NCBI RefSeq assembly: GCF_024979315.1 | Contig: NZ_JANLCK010000017.1 | Coordinates: 1-56,285, forward strand | Origin: Herbiconiux oxytropis | GTDB taxonomy: Bacteria; Actinomycetota; Actinomycetes; Actinomycetales; Microbacteriaceae | DNA: 56,285 bases | Direction of reading: 5' to 3' | In this document: piece after piece, positions 3,040 through 36,569 of the stretch | Numbering within the stretch: position 1 is the first letter of the stretch | How the letters are laid out: the number at the start of each line of letters is the position of its first letter | Position numbers and translations under genes: made by a program | The notes under the pieces: generated by a model | Databases searched by the model: none | Told to the model about the DNA's origin: nothing | Seen by the model: only the letters and a program-made list of their open reading frames with translations

Positions 3040-3186
3040 GTGAAAGTGTGGGTGGTGCTCGACCTGACCGAGTGGACGAGAGACGTCATCGGCGTGTTCG
3101 CCACTCGCGACGCGGCCATCCGCGCGATCGAGCGCACGTCATCCTGGGAGTTCTCGATCGAGCAGTGGAACGTGGAGGCGGCCTAG
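3040..3186 (+). CDS. Small uncharacterised protein, 48 residues
   Basis: A GTG-started frame of 48 codons ending in TAG, with a strong AGGAGGAG ribosome site three bases upstream. The protein starts MKVWVVLDLTEW, continues VIGVFATRDAAIRAIE and ends FSIEQWNVEAA. This pattern (beta strand, 'GVF.t.daA...i', beta strand) resembles the small DUF7336-like proteins scattered in actinobacterial and phage genomes; that match is from memory and tentative. Codons are strongly G/C-ending and the frame is clean. It is convergent with the ATPase gene, whose stop is 23 bases away. Its function is unknown. Confidence 0.65.
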   Translation: MKVWVVLDLTEWTRDVIGVFATRDAAIRAIERTSSWEFSIEQWNVEAA

Positions 3187-3208
3187 CCTTGCCAGCGCGC
3201 CGACATCC

Positions 3209-4411
3209 TCACACGTCCGGGAATCCGGTGACCCGGTCGTACGCCGCACTGTTCTCCGCACCCTCGTTCTTCAGCCGGAGTGCATACTCCTTCATGTACG
3301 GGAAGGCGATGATGAAGCGACCGCGCACCTCGGGGTCGGCCACCAGGATGCCGGCATCCACGAGATCCTTTCGGTAGCCGGGAAGGCTCGTCTCGGCGGC
3401 ACCGAGCACGCGGGCCATCTCCTTCGGGGTGATCTCGGGCTGCTCCGCGATGGTCCGAATGATCAGCTTCTGTTTTGTCGAGAGTTCTTCGTAGGCGACC
3501 CCGGCGACAGATCCGATGACCTTCTCCAGGAAGGCGGTGCGGACAGCTGAGACGTGCTCGACGTCGATCAGCTCACCGCCCGACCGTTCATAGGCCAGGT
3601 ATCCGATCTCCTGGATCATGTAGGTGTTGCCTCGGCTGAGTGCTGCCATCGCCTCGACTGCGCTGTCGGTGATCAGCAGATCGGACGCCTGGGCGATGGT
3701 GCGGATGACTGCCTGGCTCTCTTGGTAGGTGAACTCATCGAGTCTGATCTCCTCGGCCCGGGTCAGGAACGAAATGTGCTGATTCCGACGGGCGCGCTCG
3801 ATGGGGATGGGTAACCCGGAGATGACCACGGCGACAGGCAGATCATCCTCGATCAGCGACTGGTAGGCGCTGGAGAACGAGACGATGTGTTCGAGCGTGG
3901 TGTCTCGGGCATGCTTGAAGTTCATCTCGTCGATGACAATGAGGAGACCGGACATCTTGCGCCTCACCAGGAGATCGATGAGCACTCTCATCGAGGCGCC
4001 GAACGGGCGCTTGTGAGCATCGGCGGCCCGCTTCTTCCGCGTGAGCTTCGCACCCGGGATACCTACACCGAACGCGGTGAGGCCGATGTTTATCTCCGCT
4101 AGGGAGAGATTGGGCTTGCGACCGAGCTCGTCGACGAGCCAGTCCACAGCGTAGTGAACGTCATCCAGGAACCCGCGCTTGGCGCCCACGCGCAGTACCG
4201 GGATGCCCATTCCCTGGGCGCGGCGCACCGTTGCAGTGAGAAGGGTCGTCTTGCCGATGCCTCGGTTTCCGGTGATGATTGTGGCGCGACTGTGCGCGGG
4301 GTGCTTGGCGCCGAGCGTGAAGGACGTGCGATCGATGAGACCCATCTCGGTCTCGCGCCCGTAGAGCACTGTCGGCGGGGTCCCGAATCCCGGTGTGAAC
4401 GGATTCGCCAT
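3209..4411 (-). CDS. STAND/ORC-like AAA ATPase with C-terminal winged helix
   Basis: A 400-residue protein. Near the N-terminus are GREtEM-like ORC-type residues, then Walker A GNRGIGKTT at about residues 48-56, Walker B LLIVIDEMN at about 160, and a sensor-like VVISGLP near 205. The last 110 residues look like a winged helix (KQKLIIRTIAEQ...ITPKEMARVLG). It is probably a DNA-linked or regulatory ATPase. Families with this architecture include transposition helpers and defence proteins, but none is proven here. The ATG at 4411 has AGGAG five bases upstream. About a quarter of the first 65 codons end in A or T, against a few per cent in neighbours, which suggests recent acquisition. The A/T-rich leader before it is equally atypical. 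Confidence 0.75.
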   Translation of the reverse strand: MANPFTPGFGTPPTVLYGRETEMGLIDRTSFTLGAKHPAHSRATIITGNRGIGKTTLLTATVRRAQGMGIPVLRVGAKRGFLDDVHYAVDWLVDELGRKPNLSLAEINIGLTAFGVGIPGAKLTRKKRAADAHKRPFGASMRVLIDLLVRRKMSGLLIVIDEMNFKHARDTTLEHIVSFSSAYQSLIEDDLPVAVVISGLPIPIERARRNQHISFLTRAEEIRLDEFTYQESQAVIRTIAQASDLLITDSAVEAMAALSRGNTYMIQEIGYLAYERSGGELIDVEHVSAVRTAFLEKVIGSVAGVAYEELSTKQKLIIRTIAEQPEITPKEMARVLGAAETSLPGYRKDLVDAGILVADPEVRGRFIIAFPYMKEYALRLKNEGAENSAAYDRVTGFPDV

Positions 4412-24368: not shown

Positions 24369-25679
24369 ATGACAGTCTCCACCTTTATTTCCCGGGCCCG
24401 CCGGCTCACGGCCGCTGCTGCGGTCGCCGCGCTGGCCGTCGGTCTCGCCTCCTGCGCCTCGAGCGATGCGGGCACCGCCGCCGCGTGCGACGGAGACACG
24501 GCCATCAACGGCATCTTCGGCGAGGGCGGCGAGGCCGGCGGCCAGGGCGTGACCGTCAAGGTCGGCATGCTGCTCGCGATGACCGGATCCGGATCGTCGT
24601 ACGGCGAGGTCATGAGCCACGGCGCGGAGCTCGCGGCGAAGCAGATCCTCGCGGCCTGCGGCCCCGACTTCGAGATCGCCATCGGCGACCACGAGAGCGG
24701 GAGCGTGCCGGCCGCGGTGGCGGCGGCGCGCAAGCTCATCAGCCAGGACGGCATCAACGTGCTGCAGACCTCGTTCGGCGGTGTCTCCGAGGCGATCATC
24801 CCGCTCGTGCAGCAGAACAAGATCCTGACCCTGCAGGGCGGTGGCACGAGCCCCGGCCAGATCGGCAAGGACTACCTCTGGAACACCCGCCAGCTGTTCG
24901 CCGACCCGAGCATCCCCGGCGGGCTCGCCTGGGTGGCGCAGACCTACCCGGAGGCCACGAAGATGGCCGTCGTGGGCACGCTCGAGAACGGCATCAACGC
25001 CCAGACCAAGCTCATCCCCGAGATCTGGCCCGAGGTGGCCCCCGGCGGCACCGTCGTGCTCAACGAGCAGCACGAGGTCGGCCTGACCGACTTCGGGCAG
25101 ATCATCGCGAAGATCCAGTCGGCCGAGCCCGACGTGATCTGGATCTTCGAGCAGGGCGGCGACAACGCCACCTTCATGAAGGCCCTCCGCCGGGCAGGCG
25201 TCACGGCTCCCGTCGTCTCGTCCGAGACCGGTGGTGAGGAGGTCTGCAAGCTCGCTCCGGAGGAGTTCGACACCGTCATCGCCCTCGGCGAGAACTACGA
25301 CGTGGCCAACCCCAACCCCTTCAACGAGCAGTTCGTGACCGAGTACAAGGATGCCTACGGCAAGAACCCGGACATCTTCGCGGCGAACTACTACGAGGAG
25401 ATGTTCGTGTTCTGGGAGCTCGTGAACCGCGTGATCGCCGACGGCGGCGACCCCACGAGCGGTGAGCAGCTGCAGGCCGCGCTCGCAGCGGATCCGACCT
25501 TCCAGTCGGTCTACGGCGGCAGCGCCGACGAGGTGGGGACCATGTCGATCGACGAGGAGACCCACCTGCCGGTGAAGCCGATGGGCGCCTACACGATCAA
25601 GGACTGCCAGCTCACCCAGGTGGCGACCATCACCGAGGTCGACGAGGGCGCCGACCCGTTCTCGGGCGTCTCGAAGTAA
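24369..25679 (+). CDS. ABC transporter substrate-binding lipoprotein (Liv/amide type)
   Basis: A 436-residue lipoprotein: signal peptide with lipobox LASC (Cys29), then a type I periplasmic-binding fold of the branched-chain-amino-acid/amide group (VKVGMLLAMTGSGSSYGEVMSHGAELAAKQI...ISQDGINVLQTSFGGVSEAIIPLVQQNKILTLQGGG). The downstream genes are carbohydrate enzymes, not amino-acid enzymes, so the ligand is probably a sugar, polyol or sugar acid (inference). ATG at 24369 has AAGGGAAG upstream. It is the first gene of the operon. Confidence 0.92.
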   Translation: MTVSTFISRARRLTAAAAVAALAVGLASCASSDAGTAAACDGDTAINGIFGEGGEAGGQGVTVKVGMLLAMTGSGSSYGEVMSHGAELAAKQILAACGPDFEIAIGDHESGSVPAAVAAARKLISQDGINVLQTSFGGVSEAIIPLVQQNKILTLQGGGTSPGQIGKDYLWNTRQLFADPSIPGGLAWVAQTYPEATKMAVVGTLENGINAQTKLIPEIWPEVAPGGTVVLNEQHEVGLTDFGQIIAKIQSAEPDVIWIFEQGGDNATFMKALRRAGVTAPVVSSETGGEEVCKLAPEEFDTVIALGENYDVANPNPFNEQFVTEYKDAYGKNPDIFAANYYEEMFVFWELVNRVIADGGDPTSGEQLQAALAADPTFQSVYGGSADEVGTMSIDEETHLPVKPMGAYTIKDCQLTQVATITEVDEGADPFSGVSK

Positions 25680-25710: not shown

Positions 25711-26607
25711 GTGCATCTGATATCCGCCGCCGGCGCCTCCCCGTCGCTGGTCCTCCAACTCGTCGTCAGCGGCGTGGTCCTCGGATCGTTCTACGCCCTG
25801 CTGGGCATGAGCGTCAGCGTCATCTACTCGACCACGAAGGTGTTCCACTTCGCGCACGCGTTCGTCTACACGGCGGCCGCGTACGTGGCCCTCGGAACGG
25901 CGTCCGTGCTGGGGGTGCCGATCGTGCTCGCGATCGTCATCGGCCTCATCGCGGCCGTCGTGCTGGGAGTGACGATCGAGCTGGTGGTGTACCGCTCCAT
26001 GCGGAGATCGGGTGCCTCGTCGCTCGGCATCTTCCTGGCGTCGCTGGGTATCTCGATCGCGGGCCCGAACCTGATCCAGATCATCTTCGGGCCCGACGGT
26101 CGCAACCTCCCCGTCGGCAATCCGGCGCTCTACACCGTCGGCACCGTGACCTTCACCACCTGGGACATCGTGACCGTCGTGGTGAGCTGGGCGCTCATCG
26201 GCGGAGTGCTCGCGATGCGCCGGTCTCGCTGGGGGCTCGCATCCATCGCGGTGAGCGCCAACCGCGAGCTGTCGGCCGCGGTCGGCATCTCGCCGCAGAA
26301 GATCTACGTCTACGCCTTCGCCGTCGGCTCCCTGCTGATCGGCTCCGCCGCGATCCTGTTCACGCTGAACCAGGCGGCGACTCCCAACATGGGGCTGCAG
26401 CCGGTGCTGTTCGGGTTCATCGCGACCTTCCTGGCCGGCGTCGGCAACCAGAAGACGGCCCCGCTCGCCGGGTTCGTGCTCGGCATGGTCGTGAGTCTCA
26501 GCGGCATCTGGCTCTCGCAGACCTTCCAGACGGCCGTCATCTTCGGCCTGCTGTTCGTGGCCTTGATCGTGCGCCCTCAGGGCATCTTCCGGAAAGCGGC
26601 GGTGTAG
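25711..26607 (+). CDS. Liv-type ABC transporter permease (LivH-like)
   Basis: A 298-residue permease with about eight helices and the LivH signature (GVVLGSFYALLGMSVSVIYSTTKVFHFAHAFVYTAAAYVAL...LGIFLASLGISIAGPNLIQIIFG). It forms the membrane channel with the LivM-like half of the next protein. GTG start with AAGAGC upstream. It begins 31 bases after the binding-protein gene and is followed by the next gene after six bases. Confidence 0.93.
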   Translation: MHLISAAGASPSLVLQLVVSGVVLGSFYALLGMSVSVIYSTTKVFHFAHAFVYTAAAYVALGTASVLGVPIVLAIVIGLIAAVVLGVTIELVVYRSMRRSGASSLGIFLASLGISIAGPNLIQIIFGPDGRNLPVGNPALYTVGTVTFTTWDIVTVVVSWALIGGVLAMRRSRWGLASIAVSANRELSAAVGISPQKIYVYAFAVGSLLIGSAAILFTLNQAATPNMGLQPVLFGFIATFLAGVGNQKTAPLAGFVLGMVVSLSGIWLSQTFQTAVIFGLLFVALIVRPQGIFRKAAV

Positions 26608-26613
26608 AAGCTC

Positions 26614-28402
<1,789 letters not shown>

Positions 28403-28413
<11 letters not shown>

Positions 28414-29137
28414 CGAGAACGCTGCGGGGACGACCGATCGTCTGGTGGCGAACGGCCTGGTCTGCGGCTACGGCAAGCACAGCGTGCTCCACGACGTCTC
28501 GCTGACCGTCGGTGCGGGCGAGATCGTGACGATCCTCGGGCACAACGGGGCGGGCAAGACGACGGCCCTGAAGGCGCTCTTCGGCCTTCTGCCCGTGCAG
28601 TCCGGAGTCGTCATCCACGACGGCAAGGACATCACCAGGACGTCGACCGCATCGCGGGTGCGAGGCGGCATGTCGTACACCTCTGCCACGAGCGCCATCT
28701 TCCGCGACCTCACGGTGCGGCAGAACCTCGAGCTCGGGGCGTTCACCGTGCGCGACTCGAAGGTGCGCGCCGAGAGGCTCGCCCGCATCCACGACCTCTT
28801 CCCCGTCTTGAAGGACAGGGGGAGCGCCGTCGCCGGCCGGATGAGCGGTGGCCAGCAGCGCCTGCTCTCCATCGGGCTGGCCCTGATGAGCGGGGCCGAG
28901 CTGATGCTGCTCGACGAACCCTCCCTCGGCATCGCGCCGAGCCTCGTGACGGAGCTCTTCGAGTCGATCCGCGCGCTCTCCCGCGACGCCGGGCTGTCGG
29001 TGGTGCTCGTGGAGCAGAACGTGGGAGCGGCCCTGCCGATCTCCGACCGGGTCTACTACCTCCGGGCCGGCGAGATCCTCCTGTCGGAGAGCGCCGACGA
29101 GGCGCGCGCCCGAGACGATTGGTGGGAGCTGTTTTGA
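28403..29137 (+). CDS. Liv-type ABC transporter ATPase (LivF-like)
   Basis: A 244-residue ATPase with Walker A GHNGAGKTT, signature MSGGQQRLLSIGLALM, Walker B LMLLDEPSLGIAP and the switch His region (VVLVEQNVG). It pairs with the ATPase half of the fusion protein to drive import. TTG start at 28403 overlaps the upstream gene by 11 bases. Its stop overlaps the next gene as TTGA, so the whole set is translationally coupled. Confidence 0.93.
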
Positions 29138-29673
29138 GTGCGTCCGAATCCGTCATCGAGGTCGGCGACGTCGTCACGCTGCGGCGGGGCGCGGAGTGCA
29201 TTCTGCTCGGCCCGGGCCTGGCGACCCTGCGCTGGTACCAGCGCACCTTCTGCGCCACCGACGGCAGCGACGAGGACGCCCGCATCGAGGAGATCCTGCG
29301 GCCGGCCCTCGAGGTGCCGGACGGGTCGAACGGCGTGCTGTTCCTGCCGAGCGGCGACGGGGGGTCGTTCTTCGGGATGACCTACCAGACCACCTCGGCC
29401 GAGTGCACCCGCGCGGTGCACGAGGGTCTGGTGCACGCGGCGGTGACCGTGCTGCAGGAGCTCTCCGAGCGGCCCTCCGGGTTCACGCTCACCGGCCCTC
29501 GCGCCGGGAACGCCCTCTGGGGCGAGCTGTTCGCGCGTGCCACCGGCGTTCCGGTGACCGGCGACGGCGAGACCCACGTGCCTGACCCGGGATCGGTCGC
29601 GGTGCACACGGCGCTGCACGCCCTTCATCTGCAGTGCCTGGCCGCGATCCGGGAGCTCGAGGTGACGGCATGA
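29134..29673 (+). CDS. Stand-alone FGGY kinase C-terminal-domain-like protein
   Basis: A 179-residue protein, TTG start at 29134 (GGGAG upstream, TTGA overlap). Its chain aligns by eye with the second half of the FGGY kinase encoded next: ILLGPGLATLRWYQRTF with VLSNTGGGTLGIDWYLRSL, VLFLPSGDGGSFFGMTYQTTSAE with VTFLPYLG...SFTGMTEATTRHD, and TLTGPRAGNALWGELFARATGVPV with RMTGGGARSELWRQICADVMGQEL. The whole N-terminal domain is missing, including the GxDKGT phosphate loop, the WTD substrate motif and the catalytic Asp region. The GGGA adenosine loop is degraded to GPRA. It cannot be a kinase alone. A regulatory or chaperone subunit, or a sugar-binding protein, is inferred. Confidence 0.75.
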   Translation: MSASESVIEVGDVVTLRRGAECILLGPGLATLRWYQRTFCATDGSDEDARIEEILRPALEVPDGSNGVLFLPSGDGGSFFGMTYQTTSAECTRAVHEGLVHAAVTVLQELSERPSGFTLTGPRAGNALWGELFARATGVPVTGDGETHVPDPGSVAVHTALHALHLQCLAAIRELEVTA

Positions 29674-31226
29674 AGGTGCTGATCGGGGTCGACAAGGGGA
29701 CGTCGGCGACCAAGACGGTGGTGATCGACGCCGAGAACGGACGCGTCGTCGCCTCGGCGGCCAGGCGCACGCCGACGCTCGACACCGTGCAGGGCCGGCA
29801 CGAGGAGGACATGGACACGACCTGGTCGTGCGTGGCCGAGACCCTCAGGGAGTCGCTCGGGTCGCTCCGGGCGCTCGACGCCGACGCCGAGGTGCTGGCC
29901 GTCGGCGTCTGCGGGCACATGGGCGGACTCTGGTGTCTCGACGCCGACGGCCGTCCGGCGGGCCCTGCCATCGGGTGGACCGACAGCCGGGCCGTGGGGA
30001 TCCTCGAGGAATGGGAGAGTCAGGGCCTCGGCCCGAGGATCTTCGATCTGGGCGGCAACGCCATGATCGCGGGGATGCCCTCGGTGCTCTACGCCTGGAT
30101 GGCCCGCCACGAGCCGGAGTTCCTCGAGCGCGTGACCACCGTCTTCATGGCGAAGGACTTCGTGAACTTCCGGCTCACCGGGCAGATCGCGACCGACGAA
30201 TCCGATCTCTCGTTCGTGCCGTGCGACATCCGGCGCCGAGAGCCCTCGCCCGAGCTGTTCGAGCTCATGGGCATTCCCGGGCTGCTGCCGCTCCTGCCGC
30301 GAGCGGTGCGCAGCGAGACGATCATCGGGCATGTCACAGCCGCCGCCGCCGCCCAGACCGGGCTGCCCGAGGGGACCCCGGTGGTGGCCGGCCTCGGCGA
30401 TTCCGTGGCGAACGCCCTGGGTGCCGGAGCCTACGGCGCCGGCCAGGCCGTGACCGTCATCGGGACGAGCTTCATGAACGCGGTCTCGACGAGCGAACCG
30501 GTGCTCGAGCCCACGGGAGTCGGGTTCACCTACCTCATGCCCGAGAACCGCTGGCAGCGCGTGCTGTCGAACACGGGAGGCGGCACGCTCGGCATCGACT
30601 GGTACCTGCGCTCGCTCGGGTCGAGCGACGGCGACGCGATCCAAGCGGGGGAGACGACGCTGGCCGAGCTGCTGGAGGGCCCCGTCGGTGCCGTGCCACC
30701 GCTCGCGAACGGCGTGACGTTCCTCCCGTATCTCGGCACCGCCGGCGCCACCGCTCCATTCGTCGATCCGTTCGCCCGGGCGAGCTTCACGGGCATGACC
30801 GAGGCGACCACGCGTCACGACCTCCTGCGGGCCGTGCTCGAGGGAGTGGCCTACTCGATGCGCGAGTGCTATGCCGCCATGCCCGTCGACGTGCACGAGA
30901 TCCGGATGACCGGCGGCGGGGCCAGAAGCGAGCTCTGGCGGCAGATCTGCGCCGACGTCATGGGCCAGGAGCTCGCCGTGCCGCAGGTCGACGAATCGGG
31001 CGCCGTGGGCGTCGCGGTCGCGGCCGGTGTGGGGGTCGGCCACTTCCGCGACTACGCCGAGGGCGTGGCCCGACTCGTGGCCGACGGCACCGTGCAGACT
31101 CCCGAACCCTCGCGGGGGGCCGGCTACGACCGCGGCTACGCGGCCTACCGGCGACTCCGCTCCACCTTCTCCGAACTGTGGCGCGCCCGTGCCGCGTTCC
31201 TCGACTCCGAAAGGACGCCCGAGTGA
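29670..31226 (+). CDS. FGGY-family carbohydrate kinase
   Basis: A 518-residue sugar kinase. Phosphate loop GVDKGTSATK is at residues 6-15, the substrate motif GWTDSRA near 98, the catalytic-Asp motif GLGDSVANALGAG near 245, the GTSF phosphate-2 motif near 265, and the adenosine motif TGGGARSELW near 417. The FGGY signature region reads FTGMTEATTRHDLLRAVLEGVAYSMRE. It phosphorylates a ketose, pentulose or similar; the subfamily cannot be named. ATG at 29670 overlaps the previous stop (ATGA). Being between the importer and a transketolase, it likely makes the ketose phosphate that the transketolase cleaves. Confidence 0.93.
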   Translation: MKVLIGVDKGTSATKTVVIDAENGRVVASAARRTPTLDTVQGRHEEDMDTTWSCVAETLRESLGSLRALDADAEVLAVGVCGHMGGLWCLDADGRPAGPAIGWTDSRAVGILEEWESQGLGPRIFDLGGNAMIAGMPSVLYAWMARHEPEFLERVTTVFMAKDFVNFRLTGQIATDESDLSFVPCDIRRREPSPELFELMGIPGLLPLLPRAVRSETIIGHVTAAAAAQTGLPEGTPVVAGLGDSVANALGAGAYGAGQAVTVIGTSFMNAVSTSEPVLEPTGVGFTYLMPENRWQRVLSNTGGGTLGIDWYLRSLGSSDGDAIQAGETTLAELLEGPVGAVPPLANGVTFLPYLGTAGATAPFVDPFARASFTGMTEATTRHDLLRAVLEGVAYSMRECYAAMPVDVHEIRMTGGGARSELWRQICADVMGQELAVPQVDESGAVGVAVAAGVGVGHFRDYAEGVARLVADGTVQTPEPSRGAGYDRGYAAYRRLRSTFSELWRARAAFLDSERTPE

Positions 31227-32173
31227 CCATCATCCGAACCCTCACCGGTGACATCGACGCCTCCGAGCTGGGGGTCACCCTCTGCCACGAGCACCTGCTC
31301 ACGGGGCCCCCGTCGTGGGCCGTCGCCTCCGACCCCGACCTCCTTCTCGACGACCCCGAGCGCGCGGTCGAGGAGCTCGGGAGCTACGAGGCGGCGGGCG
31401 GCGGCGCCCTCGTCGAGATGACCACGATCGACTACGGGCGCGACGCCGCCGCGCTGCTGGCCGTGGCGAAGCGATCGCGCGTGCACGTGATCGCGGCGAC
31501 CGGATTCCAGAAGGGCACCTACTATCCGGAGGGGCTCGAGAAGACGCCCGTCGAGCAGCTCGCCGCGCGCATGATCGCCGACCTCACCGAGGGGATGGAC
31601 GACACCGGAGCTCGCGCGGGCGTGATCAAGTTCGGCACCTGCCGGACCGACCACCTCCAGGACGACGAGCGCCACGTGCTCGCGGCTGTCGCGGCGGCCC
31701 AGCTGCAGACGGACGCGCCGATCTCGACCCACACCCAGGCCGGCACCCTCGGCGACAAGCAGATCGAGCGCTTCGTCGATGCCGGCGTGGCCGCCGACTC
31801 GGTGCTGATCGGCCACGTCGACCGCAACCTCGACTTCGGCTACCTCCGGGCGATCGCCCAGACCGGCGCCTGGCTCGGCTTCGACCACTGGACGAAGTCG
31901 AAGTACGCCGAGGACGACGACCGGGTGGCGAACATCGAGCGACTGCTCGAGGAGGGCCACGACAGGATCCTCGTCTCCGGCGATCTCGGGCGACCCTCCT
32001 ACCAGCTCGCCTACGGGGGCACCCCTGGGTTCACGGGCATCGTGCAGACGGTCAGGGAGCGGCTCGGCGACGAGCTGGCCGATCTCTTCCTGATCGCCAA
32101 CCCGGCGCGATTCTTCGCCTTCGACCCCCTCGATCGCGTCGGTCCCACCGACTCCGAGGGGGCCGCCGCGTGA
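31223..32173 (+). CDS. Phosphotriesterase-family hydrolase, probable sugar lactonase
   Basis: A 316-residue amidohydrolase-fold enzyme. Metal ligands are visible: His22 and His24 (CHEHL), the Lys that is carboxylated in this family (VIKFGT, near 137), His in STHTQ, His in IGHVD and the Asp in SGDLGR. Characterised relatives include phosphotriesterases, N-acyl-homoserine lactonases and phospho-furanose lactonases. Given its neighbours a sugar or sugar-phosphate lactone is the most likely substrate (inference). GTG start at 31223 overlaps the kinase stop (GTGA). Confidence 0.9.
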   Translation: MTIIRTLTGDIDASELGVTLCHEHLLTGPPSWAVASDPDLLLDDPERAVEELGSYEAAGGGALVEMTTIDYGRDAAALLAVAKRSRVHVIAATGFQKGTYYPEGLEKTPVEQLAARMIADLTEGMDDTGARAGVIKFGTCRTDHLQDDERHVLAAVAAAQLQTDAPISTHTQAGTLGDKQIERFVDAGVAADSVLIGHVDRNLDFGYLRAIAQTGAWLGFDHWTKSKYAEDDDRVANIERLLEEGHDRILVSGDLGRPSYQLAYGGTPGFTGIVQTVRERLGDELADLFLIANPARFFAFDPLDRVGPTDSEGAAA

Positions 32174-32844
32174 ACGCCCTGACCGGAGACATCAAGTGCG
32201 TGCTGTTCGACTTCGACGGCACGCTCATCGACTCCCGTCCCGCCCTCGTCGGCGCCTACCGCGCCGCCTTCGAGGAGGTGCTCGGGCGGAGCTTCCCGGA
32301 GCTCGAGAACGACCCGCAGCGCCTGCTGACACCGCGCGTGGCCGAGGTGTGCCGCGACATCGCGGGCGACCGCGCCGACGAGTGCGTCGAGGCGTACGAC
32401 CGGCACTACCGCGCCGAGACCTACCGGCTCGCCACGCTCTACCCCGGGGTCGAGGAGATGCTCGCCGCCCTGCACGAGCTGGGCATCCGCACCGGCATCG
32501 TCACGAACAAGGGCAGGGCCCGCACCGAGAAGGACCTCGACTGGCTCGGCATCGCGCCGGACTCGATGGCCGCCATCATCTGCGCCGAGGACACGGTCGA
32601 GCGGAAGCCGCACCCCGCTCCGGTCGCCCTCGGCATCGAGACAGCCGGCTTCACGCCCGACCAGGTCGTGTACGTCGGCGACGGCCCCCAGGACGCGAGG
32701 TCCGGGCGAGCGAGCGGGGCCCGGACCGTCTCCGTGCTCTACGGCTACTACCCCGAAGACCTGCTCGCCGAGGCCGGGGCGGATGCCACCGCGTCGTCGC
32801 CGGCCGACCTGACCCGGATCCTCACCGGCACGCCGCCCGCGTGA
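32170..32844 (+). CDS. HAD-superfamily phosphatase (phosphoglycolate-phosphatase-like)
   Basis: A 224-residue hydrolase. Motif I FDFDGTL places the nucleophile Asp14 and acid Asp16; motif II is TNKGRA, motif III the Lys of ERKPHPAP, and motif IV GDGPQDARSG. The helical cap between residues 18-85 fits subclass I (PGP/Gph-like). It could remove phosphate from a pathway product such as phosphoglycolate or an overflow sugar phosphate. GTG start overlaps the upstream stop (GTGA). Confidence 0.92.
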   Translation: MNALTGDIKCVLFDFDGTLIDSRPALVGAYRAAFEEVLGRSFPELENDPQRLLTPRVAEVCRDIAGDRADECVEAYDRHYRAETYRLATLYPGVEEMLAALHELGIRTGIVTNKGRARTEKDLDWLGIAPDSMAAIICAEDTVERKPHPAPVALGIETAGFTPDQVVYVGDGPQDARSGRASGARTVSVLYGYYPEDLLAEAGADATASSPADLTRILTGTPPA

Positions 32845-32885: not shown

Positions 32886-33716
32886 ATGACCGACACCACC
32901 ACACGACCCAGCGTCTCGGAGCTCACCGAGATCGCGCACCGGCTGCGACGCCGGATGATGCGCATGGCCGCCGACAAGGGCGAGGGCTACATCGCGCAGG
33001 GGCTCGGCATCGCCGACATGCTCGCCGCCGTCTACTGGTCCGAGCTGCAGTTCGACGCCGAACGGCTCGACGACCCCGATCGCGACCGGTTCCTGCTCTC
33101 GACCGGCCACTACTCGATCGCGCTCTACGCCGTGCTGGCCGAGCTCGGTGTGCTGACGGACGAGGAGACGGCGACCTACGCGCTCAACGGCAGCGACCTG
33201 CCCATGAGCGCCTTCGACGAGACCCCCGGTGTCGAGATCACGAGCGGCAGTCTGGGGCACGGCCTCGGCCAGGGCGTCGGCATGGCGCTCGGGCTGCGGC
33301 TGAAGGGCTCGCCGGCCACGGTCTACGTCGAGCTCTCGGACGGCGAGCTGCAGGAGGGCTCCACCTGGGAGTCGGCGATGGCCGCGAGCAGCTTCGCGCT
33401 CGACGGACTGTGGGCGCTCGTCGACTGCAACGGCATCCAGGCCGACGGGCCCATGGTGATGGACATCGAGTCGGTCGCCGTCAAGTGGAGCGCCTTCGGC
33501 TGGTCGGTCGAAGAGGTGAACGGCAACGACATGGCGGAGATCGTCGCCGCCTTCGCGGCCCTCCGCGACAAGCCGGGCCCCAAGGCGATCATCCTGCGCA
33601 CGACCCCCGGCTGGGGCGTGCCGACGATCGTGGCCCGCGACCGGGCGCACTTCGTGCGCGTGCACGAGGACGAATGGACGAAACTGCTGGCCGAACTGGA
33701 GGAGAACCATGGTTGA
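32886..33716 (+). CDS. Transketolase, N-terminal (thiamin diphosphate) subunit
   Basis: A 276-residue subunit. It contains the domain that binds thiamin diphosphate through Mg: the SDGELQEGSTWES...VDCNGIQADG stretch is the GDGx(25-30)N motif with Ser replacing the first Gly. Also visible are HYSIALYA and GSLGHGLGQGVGMALG. ATG at 32886 follows AAAGGGAAG. It works with the next gene product; two-gene transketolases are common in catabolic clusters. The gene overlaps its partner by eight bases. Confidence 0.95.
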   Translation: MTDTTTRPSVSELTEIAHRLRRRMMRMAADKGEGYIAQGLGIADMLAAVYWSELQFDAERLDDPDRDRFLLSTGHYSIALYAVLAELGVLTDEETATYALNGSDLPMSAFDETPGVEITSGSLGHGLGQGVGMALGLRLKGSPATVYVELSDGELQEGSTWESAMAASSFALDGLWALVDCNGIQADGPMVMDIESVAVKWSAFGWSVEEVNGNDMAEIVAAFAALRDKPGPKAIILRTTPGWGVPTIVARDRAHFVRVHEDEWTKLLAELEENHG

Positions 33717-34692
33717 GCTGAAGAATCGCGCGGGTGGCATGGGCGAGGTCGCCGAGGTGGCCGGCCCCTACGAGGTCGCACCGTTCGGCACGGCGCTCGC
33801 CGAGTTGGGGAAGACCATGCCCCACATCGTGGGCGTGACCGCCGACATGGGGCGCTACAGCGACATCCTGCCCTTCCGGGACGCCTTCCCTGACCGCTTC
33901 TTCAACGTGGGCATGGCCGAGCAGGACGCCATCATGGTGGCCGCCGGGCTCGCGAAGGTCGGGCACGTGGCGTTCGTGGCCACCTACTCCGTGTTCCTCA
34001 CCCGCCGCGCCCTCGACTTCATGGCCATCGCGTGCGCCCACAGCAAGGCCGACGTGAAGGTCATGGGCGGATCGCCCGGCCTCGTGAACCCCTACGGCGG
34101 CACGCACCAGGCACTCGAGGATCTCGCCGTGATGCGGATGATCCCCGACGTGACCGTCATCGATCCGTGCGACGCCACCGAGCTCAAGCAGGTGGTGAAG
34201 GCCGCTGCGGAGACCCCGGGCACCTTCTACATCCGCAACATCCGCGGCAAGGTGCCGGTCACGCTCGACGACTCCTACCGCTTCGAGATCGGGAAGTCAC
34301 GCGTGCTCCGTGAGGGCACCGACGTGGGCATCGTCAGCACGGGCTTCATGACGGCGCGGGCGCTCGAGGCCGCCGACCGGGCGGCGGAGGCGGGTGTCTC
34401 GGTGGGGGTGCTGCACGTGCCGACCATCAAGCCCTTCGACACCGAGGGCCTGCTCGAGTTCGCCTCGCGCTACCCCCGGCTCGTGACGGCCGAGAACCAC
34501 CTCCGCGCCGGCGGCCTCGGCACGCTCGTGGTGGAGACGCTGTTCGACGCGCAGGAAACCAGGCCGGTCATCCGGATCGGGTTGCGCGACCGGTTCCACC
34601 CGTGCGGTTCGCAGGACTACCTCGACCGGATGTTCGGCCTCGACACCGACTCGATCACCGAGGCGCTCGTCGCCGATCGATGGGACCACTAG
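33709..34692 (+). CDS. Transketolase, C-terminal (pyrimidine-binding) subunit
   Basis: A 327-residue subunit containing the pyrimidine-binding domain with the catalytic Glu in NVGMAEQDAIMVAAGLA. The rest of the domain follows, with 'GSPGLVNPYGGTHQALEDLAVMRMIPDVTVIDPCDATE', then the C-terminal domain (VGIVSTGFMTARALEAADRAAEAGVSVGVLHVPTIKPFD). It completes a two-subunit enzyme moving a two-carbon ketol unit, presumably from the FGGY kinase product to an aldose phosphate. Strong GGAGGAG ribosome site within the end of the preceding gene. Confidence 0.95.
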   Translation: MVELKNRAGGMGEVAEVAGPYEVAPFGTALAELGKTMPHIVGVTADMGRYSDILPFRDAFPDRFFNVGMAEQDAIMVAAGLAKVGHVAFVATYSVFLTRRALDFMAIACAHSKADVKVMGGSPGLVNPYGGTHQALEDLAVMRMIPDVTVIDPCDATELKQVVKAAAETPGTFYIRNIRGKVPVTLDDSYRFEIGKSRVLREGTDVGIVSTGFMTARALEAADRAAEAGVSVGVLHVPTIKPFDTEGLLEFASRYPRLVTAENHLRAGGLGTLVVETLFDAQETRPVIRIGLRDRFHPCGSQDYLDRMFGLDTDSITEALVADRWDH

Positions 34693-34698
34693 GCCCTC

Positions 34699-35808
34699 AT
34701 GGTTCCCACGACGGCGCCCCCCGGGGCGCGCATCTACAGTTCACCGCTCCGCTACGTGCAGGGGCCCGGTGCGCTGGACCAGGTCGGCCGGTTCGCCGCG
34801 CTGGGCCACTCCCGAGCGGCGCTGCTGCTGGACTCGTTCATCGCCGATGAGATCGAGCCCCGGCTCGTGCGCTCGCTCGAAGCGGGCGGTCTCGTGATCG
34901 ACTGCCGCCGGGTGAGCGACGAGGTCACAGCCGGCAACATCGCCGACCTCGCGGCGGAGTTCGCGGTCGGTCGTCCGGATCTGGTCGTGGCAGCGGGCGG
35001 AGGCAAGACCCTCGACCTCGGGAAGGGCGTCTCCGCCGCGCTGTCCATCCCCATCATCACCGTGCCGACGATCGCGTCGAACGACGGCCCGACGTCGCGG
35101 GTGATCGCGCAGTACGACGACGAGCACCGGCTCATCGCCACGCCCACGATGTCGTTCAACCCCGAGGCCGTCATCGTCGACACCGCCCTCATCAGCGGGG
35201 CCCCGCGCCGGTTCCTCCTCTCGGGCATCGGCGACGCGCTCGCCAAGACGTTCGAGGCCGGAGCCACCGCGCGTGCGGGCGGGCTGAACTCACACTCCAC
35301 CGCACCGCTCAGCCTGCCGCTGGCCATCGCGGCGCACTGCTACTCCGTCCTCCTCCGCGACAGCGCGAGCGCCCTCCGCGACCTCGGCGGGCCGACCGTC
35401 TCGGCCGAGCTCGAGAACGTCATCGAGGCTGTCGTGCTGATGTCCGGCCTGGCCTTCGAGAACGGCGGACTGTCCCTTGCCCACGCCATGACGCGGGGGC
35501 TCATGGCGGAGTCGGGGTCGTCGTCCCACCTGCACGGCTTCCAGGTGGCCTACGGTCTCCTCGTGCAGCTCACGCACGAGGGCGACGAGGCCGAGTTCGA
35601 GCGCGTGAGCCGCTTCTTCGACGCCGTGGAGCTTCCCCGCACACTGCACGACCTCGGAGCGGCGAGCGACGACGACACCCTCCGGCGGATGGCGACGGCC
35701 GCGATGTCGGCGCCGCACGCCCGCCATTCGACACCGACCGCATCCGTCGACTCGCTCATCGGGGCCATGGAATCGGTCGAGAGCACCCTCGAGGAGAGAC
35801 CGGCATGA
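34699..35808 (+). CDS. Glycerol-dehydrogenase-like (GldA family) metal-dependent dehydrogenase
   Basis: A 369-residue enzyme of the iron/zinc alcohol-dehydrogenase group. The NAD-binding GGGKTLDLGKGVSA and VPTIASNDGPTSR motifs match GldA. The three expected metal ligands are seen: Asp in GIGDALAKTFEA, His in LAHAMTRGL and His in SHLHGFQVAYG. GldA interconverts glycerol and dihydroxyacetone. Here the neighbours suggest another polyol or hydroxyketone. ATG at 34699 is six bases after the previous stop with only a weak ribosome site. It overlaps the next gene by ATGA. Confidence 0.92.
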   Translation: MVPTTAPPGARIYSSPLRYVQGPGALDQVGRFAALGHSRAALLLDSFIADEIEPRLVRSLEAGGLVIDCRRVSDEVTAGNIADLAAEFAVGRPDLVVAAGGGKTLDLGKGVSAALSIPIITVPTIASNDGPTSRVIAQYDDEHRLIATPTMSFNPEAVIVDTALISGAPRRFLLSGIGDALAKTFEAGATARAGGLNSHSTAPLSLPLAIAAHCYSVLLRDSASALRDLGGPTVSAELENVIEAVVLMSGLAFENGGLSLAHAMTRGLMAESGSSSHLHGFQVAYGLLVQLTHEGDEAEFERVSRFFDAVELPRTLHDLGAASDDDTLRRMATAAMSAPHARHSTPTASVDSLIGAMESVESTLEERPA

Positions 35809-36569
35809 CGACACGGACAGTACTCATCACGGGCGCCGCCCAGGGCCTCGGGGCCGAGACGGCGCGCCATCTCGCAGCTCGGCACTGGCGGGTGGTCGTC
35901 GCGGATCTCTCGGCCGAGGCCGCCCAGCGCGTCGTCGACGAACTCGACGACGCCTTCCCCGTGGAGGGCGGACACCTCGCCCTCGGGGTCGACGTGGCCG
36001 ACGAGCAGCGGGTCGAGGCGGCGTTCGCCGCGCTGAGCTCGCACATCGAATCGCTGAACGGCGTGGTGAACGGGGCCGGCGTGCTCTTCCGCATGCCGGC
36101 CGAGGAGTTCGACACCGCGTCGTGGCGGCTGCAGCTCGACGTGCACCTCACGGGCGCGATGCTCTGCAGCCGGTTCGCCTTCCCCCTGCTGAAGCGTGCG
36201 GGCTCGGCCTCGATCGTCAACGTGGGATCGGTGGGCTCGACCTTCGGACTGCCGGGGAGGTTGGCCTACTCCACGGCCAAGAGCGGCGTGCTGGGCCTCA
36301 CCCGCACCCTGGCTGTCGAGTGGGGGCCGCACAACATCCGCGTCAACGCGGTGGCACCGGGGTACATCGCCACCGAGATGGCGCTCAGCGGATTCCGTTC
36401 CGGCGCCCTCAACCGGGATCGCATCATCGATCGCACGCCGCTCGGCCGGCTGGGCGAGCCGTCGGAGATCGCCTCGGTCATCGCGTTCCTCCTCGGCGAC
36501 GAGTCCTCGTTCGTCACGGGCGCGGTGCTGAACACCGACGGAGGCGTCACGATCGACGGCACCTTCTAG
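35805..36569 (+). CDS. Short-chain dehydrogenase/reductase, last gene of the catabolic operon
   Basis: A 254-residue classical SDR: cofactor motif TGAAQGLGAE at residues 8-17, NGAG near 86, Ser in NVGSVGS, the YSTAK active site, and the FVTGAVLNTDGG C-terminal strand. The ADLS acidic residue after the second strand suggests NAD(H). It likely oxidises a polyol carbon to a ketone for the kinase, or reduces a product. ATGA overlap with the GldA-like gene. The operon ends here, where CTAG serves as stop for both this gene and the convergent SDR. Confidence 0.92.
   Translation: MTTRTVLITGAAQGLGAETARHLAARHWRVVVADLSAEAAQRVVDELDDAFPVEGGHLALGVDVADEQRVEAAFAALSSHIESLNGVVNGAGVLFRMPAEEFDTASWRLQLDVHLTGAMLCSRFAFPLLKRAGSASIVNVGSVGSTFGLPGRLAYSTAKSGVLGLTRTLAVEWGPHNIRVNAVAPGYIATEMALSGFRSGALNRDRIIDRTPLGRLGEPSEIASVIAFLLGDESSFVTGAVLNTDGGVTIDGTF

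Follow-up and report, generated by a model that had tools for sequence, protein, structure and literature searches.

The DNA analysed here, called the window throughout, is a stretch of 56,285 nucleotides from Herbiconiux oxytropis (contig NZ_JANLCK010000017.1). It carries an operon-like row of genes in which LivK, LivH, LivM-LivG and LivF are followed by a small gene, a kinase of the FGGY family, phosphotriesterase and HAD genes, two transketolase genes, an iron-containing alcohol dehydrogenase and a short-chain dehydrogenase (Table 1). The small gene overlaps its neighbours by four bases at both ends, and the intact frame of 179 residues, the TTGA/ATGA coupling and the ribosome site described in an earlier, sequence-only reading of this DNA are all seen.

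Some of the surrounding genes have features of their own. The LivM permease and LivG ATPase form a single protein of 599 residues, and this fusion is retained in a related operon from a Nocardioidaceae MAG. The transketolase pair, with glycerol dehydrogenase and SDR genes, is also present on a Cnuibacter plasmid (L078, 11175-14894) and on a Variovorax plasmid (L080, 5094-8758), where acyl-CoA or acetate-CoA ligase genes lie nearby and the stretch shown holds no annotated FGGY kinase. Since this group of genes is seen on two plasmids without an annotated FGGY kinase, it may be a movable module.

Table 1. Genes and sequence features of the operon-like row, in window coordinates
Feature	Position	Strand	Remarks
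LivK-type binding protein	24369..25679	+	
LivH-type permease	25711..26607	+	
LivM-LivG permease-ATPase fusion	26614..28413	+	
LivF-type ATPase	28403..29137	+	
Ribosome-binding-site-like GGGAG	29124..29128	+	5 bases 5' of the TTG; by eye
FGGY_C-only small gene	29134..29673	+	179 aa, TTG start, TGA stop included; ORF, profile and fold evidence
TTGA overlap, LivF stop / small-gene start	29134..29137	+	
Counterpart of FGGY dimer-interface strand and following residues	29362..29406	+	codons 77-91 (GSFFGMTYQTTSAEC); mapped by motif spacing
GPRA replacing adenosine motif GGGA	29494..29505	+	alignment
ATGA overlap, small-gene stop / kinase ATG	29670..29673	+	GTGA at the equivalent place in the Nocardioidaceae MAG
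FGGY kinase, full-length	29670..31226	+	518 aa; FGGY_N + FGGY_C; retains WTD, GLGD, IGTS, GGGA
Phosphotriesterase-family hydrolase	31223..32173	+	
HAD-family hydrolase	32170..32844	+	
Transketolase N and C subunits	32886..34692	+	two ORFs, 32886-33716 and 33709-34692
Iron-containing alcohol dehydrogenase	34699-35808	+	
Short-chain dehydrogenase (SDR)	35805-36569	+	

Domain content, lost motifs and predicted fold

As the sequence-only reading had proposed, the small protein can be aligned to the C-terminal portion of the adjoining kinase (30% identity) and has nothing of its first domain; FGGY_C is the only domain found, in place of the FGGY_N plus FGGY_C pair by which FGGY kinases are recognised. 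The match to Pfam FGGY_C (E 2.5e-5, 24.6 bits) lies just under the cut-off of 27, with the second Herbiconiux protein at 26.6 bits and the Nocardioidaceae orthologue, at 27.6, just above it. The match to the NCBIfam XylB model (E 3.7e-6, 25.8 bits) is far under the equivalog cut-off of that model. When a profile was made from the three small proteins, it found the xylulose kinase of E. coli among solved structures (2itm, E 1.2e-6).

An alignment of the small proteins with four kinases, those of the window and of the Nocardioidaceae MAG and the two from a Paracoccaceae plasmid operon that is described below, shows what they lack. No part of FGGY_N is present, nor are GLGD (the catalytic stretch) and IGTS (the phosphate loop); about 13 residues are missing from the APFVDPFAR (DPxAR) loop, and the counterpart of the adenosine motif GGGA reads GPRA in the Herbiconiux proteins and TRDA in the Nocardioidaceae protein. 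The absence of the phosphate loop and catalytic Asp, and the change from GGGA to GPRA, had already been noticed from the window by itself; with the catalytic Asp and phosphate-loop regions gone, the alignment places the small proteins outside the FGGY kinases proper. Every motif missing from the small protein is retained by the adjoining kinase. The functions assigned here to GLGD, IGTS, the DPxAR loop and GGGA are those that we take from general knowledge of the FGGY family, and that the small protein is a catalytically dead FGGY C-domain follows, at the level of sequence, from the loss of these ATP and catalytic motifs. The small proteins also have conserved residues that are peculiar to them, such as TFCAT and ALHAL.

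Two models of the fold were made. The first, a modest one from an alignment of the three small proteins alone, has a mean pLDDT of 61 and a pTM of 0.63, with residues 47-86 below 50, and a Foldseek search with it is led by xylulose, gluconate and glycerol kinases (best E 4.3e-8, 2itm). Its TM-score against 2itm_B is 0.70 on the query, and its alignment to xylulose kinase extends over 237 columns including gaps. The second model, which is not independent of the kinases because C-domains of kinases were added to its alignment, has a mean pLDDT of 74, is again matched best by FGGY kinases and reaches a TM-score of 0.73 on the query against 3ifr_B. The FGGY/actin-like fold that the sequence-only reading expected is therefore the one predicted, FGGY kinases heading the Foldseek list, and by prediction the small protein has the actin-like fold of an FGGY C-domain. 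Both models show a single domain that opens with a meander of three strands and continues with the C-domain helices and strands, and for this reason the protein looks more like a trimmed, nearly complete C-domain than the half of one that had been suggested.

Set beside FGGY kinases of the XylB (xylulokinase) branch, the small protein is thus like them in its predicted C-terminal fold and its FGGY_C and XylB profile matches, and unlike them in having no FGGY_N, catalytic Asp, phosphate loop, DPxAR loop or GGGA.

Conservation, selection and rarity of the pair

The pairing of small gene and kinase extends beyond the window. A sister Herbiconiux MAG (NZ_JAHFUY010000021.1) has the small gene intact, at 91% identity and with no stops and no gaps, and a search of the genus located the orthologous kinase in two of 16 genomes, both of which also have the small gene. 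The Nocardioidaceae MAG, whose family and order differ from those of Herbiconiux, holds an intact small gene of 182 codons (48-50% identical) with a GTGA overlap into its partner kinase, which is 72% identical to the window kinase. In this Nocardioidaceae operon a dehydrogenase gene (L065, 7386-8459), of the zinc-type alcohol dehydrogenases by eye, stands between LivF and the small gene. Across the two families, then, the link of the small gene to the kinase is retained and its link to LivF lost, and in all three genomes carrying it the small gene lies directly 5' of the orthologous kinase. The sequence-only interpretation holds in so far as a dead C-domain gene is coupled to a kinase in two families; the conservation in several genera that it had hoped for amounts to two genera and three genomes, a thin spread. 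Both homologues found are intact genes and not the pseudogenes that it had allowed for.

Substitutions between the window and the sister genome point to constraint on the protein. Those in the small gene fall 9, 8 and 36 times at codon positions 1, 2 and 3, and its dN/dS is 0.174 (bootstrap 95% range 0.088-0.317, 500 resamples). Just one of the twelve other genes compared has a higher value; these twelve, a divergent IclR gene included, range from 0.032 to 0.187. Against the Nocardioidaceae operon (NG86) the small gene has a dN of 0.457 with a dS of 0.829 and the kinase a dN of 0.197 with a dS of 0.893, both dS values being high and rough, and the small-gene dN is the highest of six genes. The small gene diverges faster than the kinase (48% versus 72% identity). 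It is real, intact and under purifying selection.

It is also very rare. The two kinases served as queries for a pattern scan of genome_contigs, a collection described as covering 84,980 species. It returned 110 pattern matches and four confirmed loci, though a scan of this kind can miss diverged relatives; the four were those of the sister genome and of the Nocardioidaceae MAG (kinase 72% identical) and two remote kinases (27% and 22%). Five overlapping actinobacterial samples of 199-396 genomes were searched with the small protein or a small-protein profile; in all of them except that of the Herbiconiux family, scoring covered the best 8 or 10 candidates per genome. The small-gene type turned up in a single genome of the Herbiconiux family (199 genomes), of the order (396), of the class (394) and, among the matches listed, of the phylum (396), each time the window's own genome. 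In the family of the Nocardioidaceae MAG (324 genomes) it was likewise seen once, in the MAG itself. Among the matches listed from these five overlapping samples there was no small-gene case beyond the three genomes, and none of the remaining matches exceeded 46 bits, compared with 332-393.

Such matches are poorly judged by frame length alone, because the small gene itself sits in an open frame of 419 codons, and 54 loci were therefore checked for an N-domain. In 50 of the 54 an N-domain shares the frame (E < 1e-3); three of the others (L017, L028 and L038) gave a weak N-domain match (E 0.002-0.034) and one (L025) none. Small genes not counted, eight of the matches listed lay in frames of fewer than 400 codons. 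The six that were read included no small gene-kinase pair: in three the frame runs off the contig end (L082, L083, L086), one is a full kinase that is broken or gapped (L085), one gave no match on re-check (L084), and one (L081, genome G986) codes in 203 codons for the C-terminal part of a xylulokinase-like protein, GGGA intact. This last frame, on the reverse strand at about 3128-3739, is the sole FGGY match in the 7.5 kb read and is probably a gene remnant. The two further short-frame matches lie at a contig end (G1470:C97) or contain a stop (G1259:C70). The viral contigs searched held no relative of the small protein and none of the kinase, and among plasmids the small protein returned 24 records, none covering 80% of the query, at E 2e-5 or weaker.

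Tandem kinases and a possible origin of the small gene

Two full-length FGGY kinases, overlapping by four bases, are found in a related operon on pLA6_001, a plasmid of Paracoccaceae bacterium La 6 (CP031586.1). The row consists of an annotated sugar ABC transporter, the two kinases, a HAD gene (annotated PpaX), a lactonase, a transketolase pair, GldA and an SDR gene, of which the HAD, transketolase, GldA and SDR genes are common to the window; between the two operons the transketolase subunits share 59% and 62% identity. The second kinase is 47.5% and the first 43.3% identical to the window kinase. It is the first that occupies the place of the small gene, but unlike the small gene it is full length, with DKGT, GLGD and GGGA, and the annotated sugar transporter differs from the Liv type of the window. 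Since a full kinase occupies that place, the plasmid suggests that the small gene may be the reduced first kinase of a tandem pair such as this one, the more tentative part of our proposal.

Phylogeny is compatible with more than one origin. Before the AU test the alignment was trimmed by 20 of its 69 rows, chiefly long or distant branches, and from 177 columns to 141. Constraining the small proteins to join the first pLA6_001 kinase gave a p-AU of 0.376, the partner kinases 0.202, the second pLA6_001 kinase 0.195, the partner and both pLA6_001 kinases together 0.27, and a clade containing the upstream kinases of five tandem pairs from actinobacteria 0.409. The unconstrained tree puts the small proteins beside two other kinases (92/68 support) and is uninformative on origin; in short, the 141-column tree joins them neither to the partner kinase nor to a tandem kinase, and the AU test rejects neither. 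In the alignment used for the tree, the small proteins are 24-27% identical to the partner kinases. An origin by recent partial duplication of the partner kinase is not supported by these sequences, though its AU value (p 0.202) does not reject it.

The five actinobacterial loci just mentioned (L029, L030, L058, L032 and L019) each have two long FGGY kinase frames in tandem. Their downstream members group on a very long branch, and by eye both members have an Asp in the catalytic place; they are possible further candidates for kinase pairs that form complexes.

A putative partner of the kinase

Glycerol kinase, an FGGY kinase, is described as a dimer of like subunits, joined mostly through strands of the C-terminal domain (PMC7765489). 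The contacts listed in that account include Gly436, Thr437, Leu438, Phe439, Gly440, Ile441, Thr445 and Ile450, together with Phe389, Leu394, Phe422 and Trp580, which lie outside the mapping made here (PMC7765489). The spacing of the first eight agrees with the ARGAIFGLTRGVNANHI segment in E. coli GlpK, and their equivalents in the small protein, mapped by motif spacing and not by coordinates, are G77-S78-F79-F80-G81-M82, T86 and C91. Seven of these eight residues are identical between Herbiconiux and Nocardioidaceae. Identity over residues 76-91 is 13/16 against 73/163 elsewhere (Fisher p 0.007, uncorrected and for a stretch picked post hoc), and stretches beginning at residues 79, 80, 89, 90 and 91 are conserved as well as this one. 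The mapped interface stretch also belongs to the general FGGY core.

When a protein retains its dimer strand, no longer has an ATP site and is produced alongside a kinase, the simplest reading is that it partners that kinase, and since the small gene is intact beside the kinase in distantly related actinobacteria, it probably encodes a working partner and not debris. The small protein would be translated in step with the adjoining kinase and bind it, taking the position of the second subunit at the dimer face of the kinase C-domain. Docking through the dimer strand, like the function of the small protein as a partner, is what we infer from sequence. The resulting heteromer of kinase and pseudo-subunit would stabilise or tune the kinase; the small protein may stabilise, inhibit or activate it. 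That the protein is a dead, single-domain FGGY_C made in step with the adjoining kinase and binding it has, in our judgement, an even chance of being right. The fuller proposal, of a heteromeric FGGY sugar kinase in which an active two-domain subunit is controlled by a dead C-domain subunit that descends from a tandem pair and replaces the second kinase at the dimer face, is tentative, its chances falling somewhat short of even.

Other readings have to be weighed against this one. The small protein may work away from the kinase, binding a pathway metabolite or another protein of the operon, such as the transporter or transketolase, as a sensor or scaffold. Loss of the usual ATP motifs alongside conserved residues of its own (TFCAT, ALHAL) is consistent with such a role, and FGGY kinases do bind unrelated regulators, as in the solved complexes LsrK-HPr (5ya0) and GlpK-IIIGlc (1gla), both among the Foldseek matches. 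That said, the overlap with the kinase is retained while the 5' neighbour changes, and the predicted fold is that of the kinase's own C-domain, so that a function off the kinase seems unlikely, if still a serious contender. As for a decaying remnant of a second kinase, the N-terminal truncation, the relatively high dN/dS and dN values given above and the full-length kinase in the same place on pLA6_001 are what such a history might leave; yet dN/dS is 0.17 with an upper bound of 0.32, none of the three genomes has a stop or frameshift, and the same truncation and kinase overlap recur in two families. Decay is accordingly very improbable, and debris, which the sequence-only reading had also dismissed, is rejected on the dN/dS and the intact orthologues. 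Equally hard to credit is that the frame serves only to couple translation of the kinase, its protein being irrelevant: the four-base overlaps at both ends would suit this, but the codon-position pattern and conserved fold speak for constraint on the protein, and the tandem kinases of pLA6_001 overlap likewise without any such small gene.

For the preferred reading, that of a kinase partner, the TsaB/TsaD pair is to our knowledge the nearest analogy of working. TsaB is a paralogue of the enzyme TsaD, from the same actin-like superfamily, and forms a complex with it; it is two-lobed and different in sequence, whereas the small protein has one domain, making this an analogy of working and not of membership (PMC9654439). 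Zhang et al. (2011) briefly note single-domain FGGY_C proteins and exclude them from their study, the passage giving no gene, context or role for them (PMC3245297). A search of open-licence papers turned up no study recognised as dealing with such a small gene or with the gene-kinase pair. Genes of this type would probably be annotated as hypothetical because they lie at the Pfam cut-off. If the partner reading is true, a dead single-domain protein kept under selection beside a kinase would offer a natural means of exploring what a second subunit does, and an example of a duplicate enzyme reduced to its dimerisation domain.
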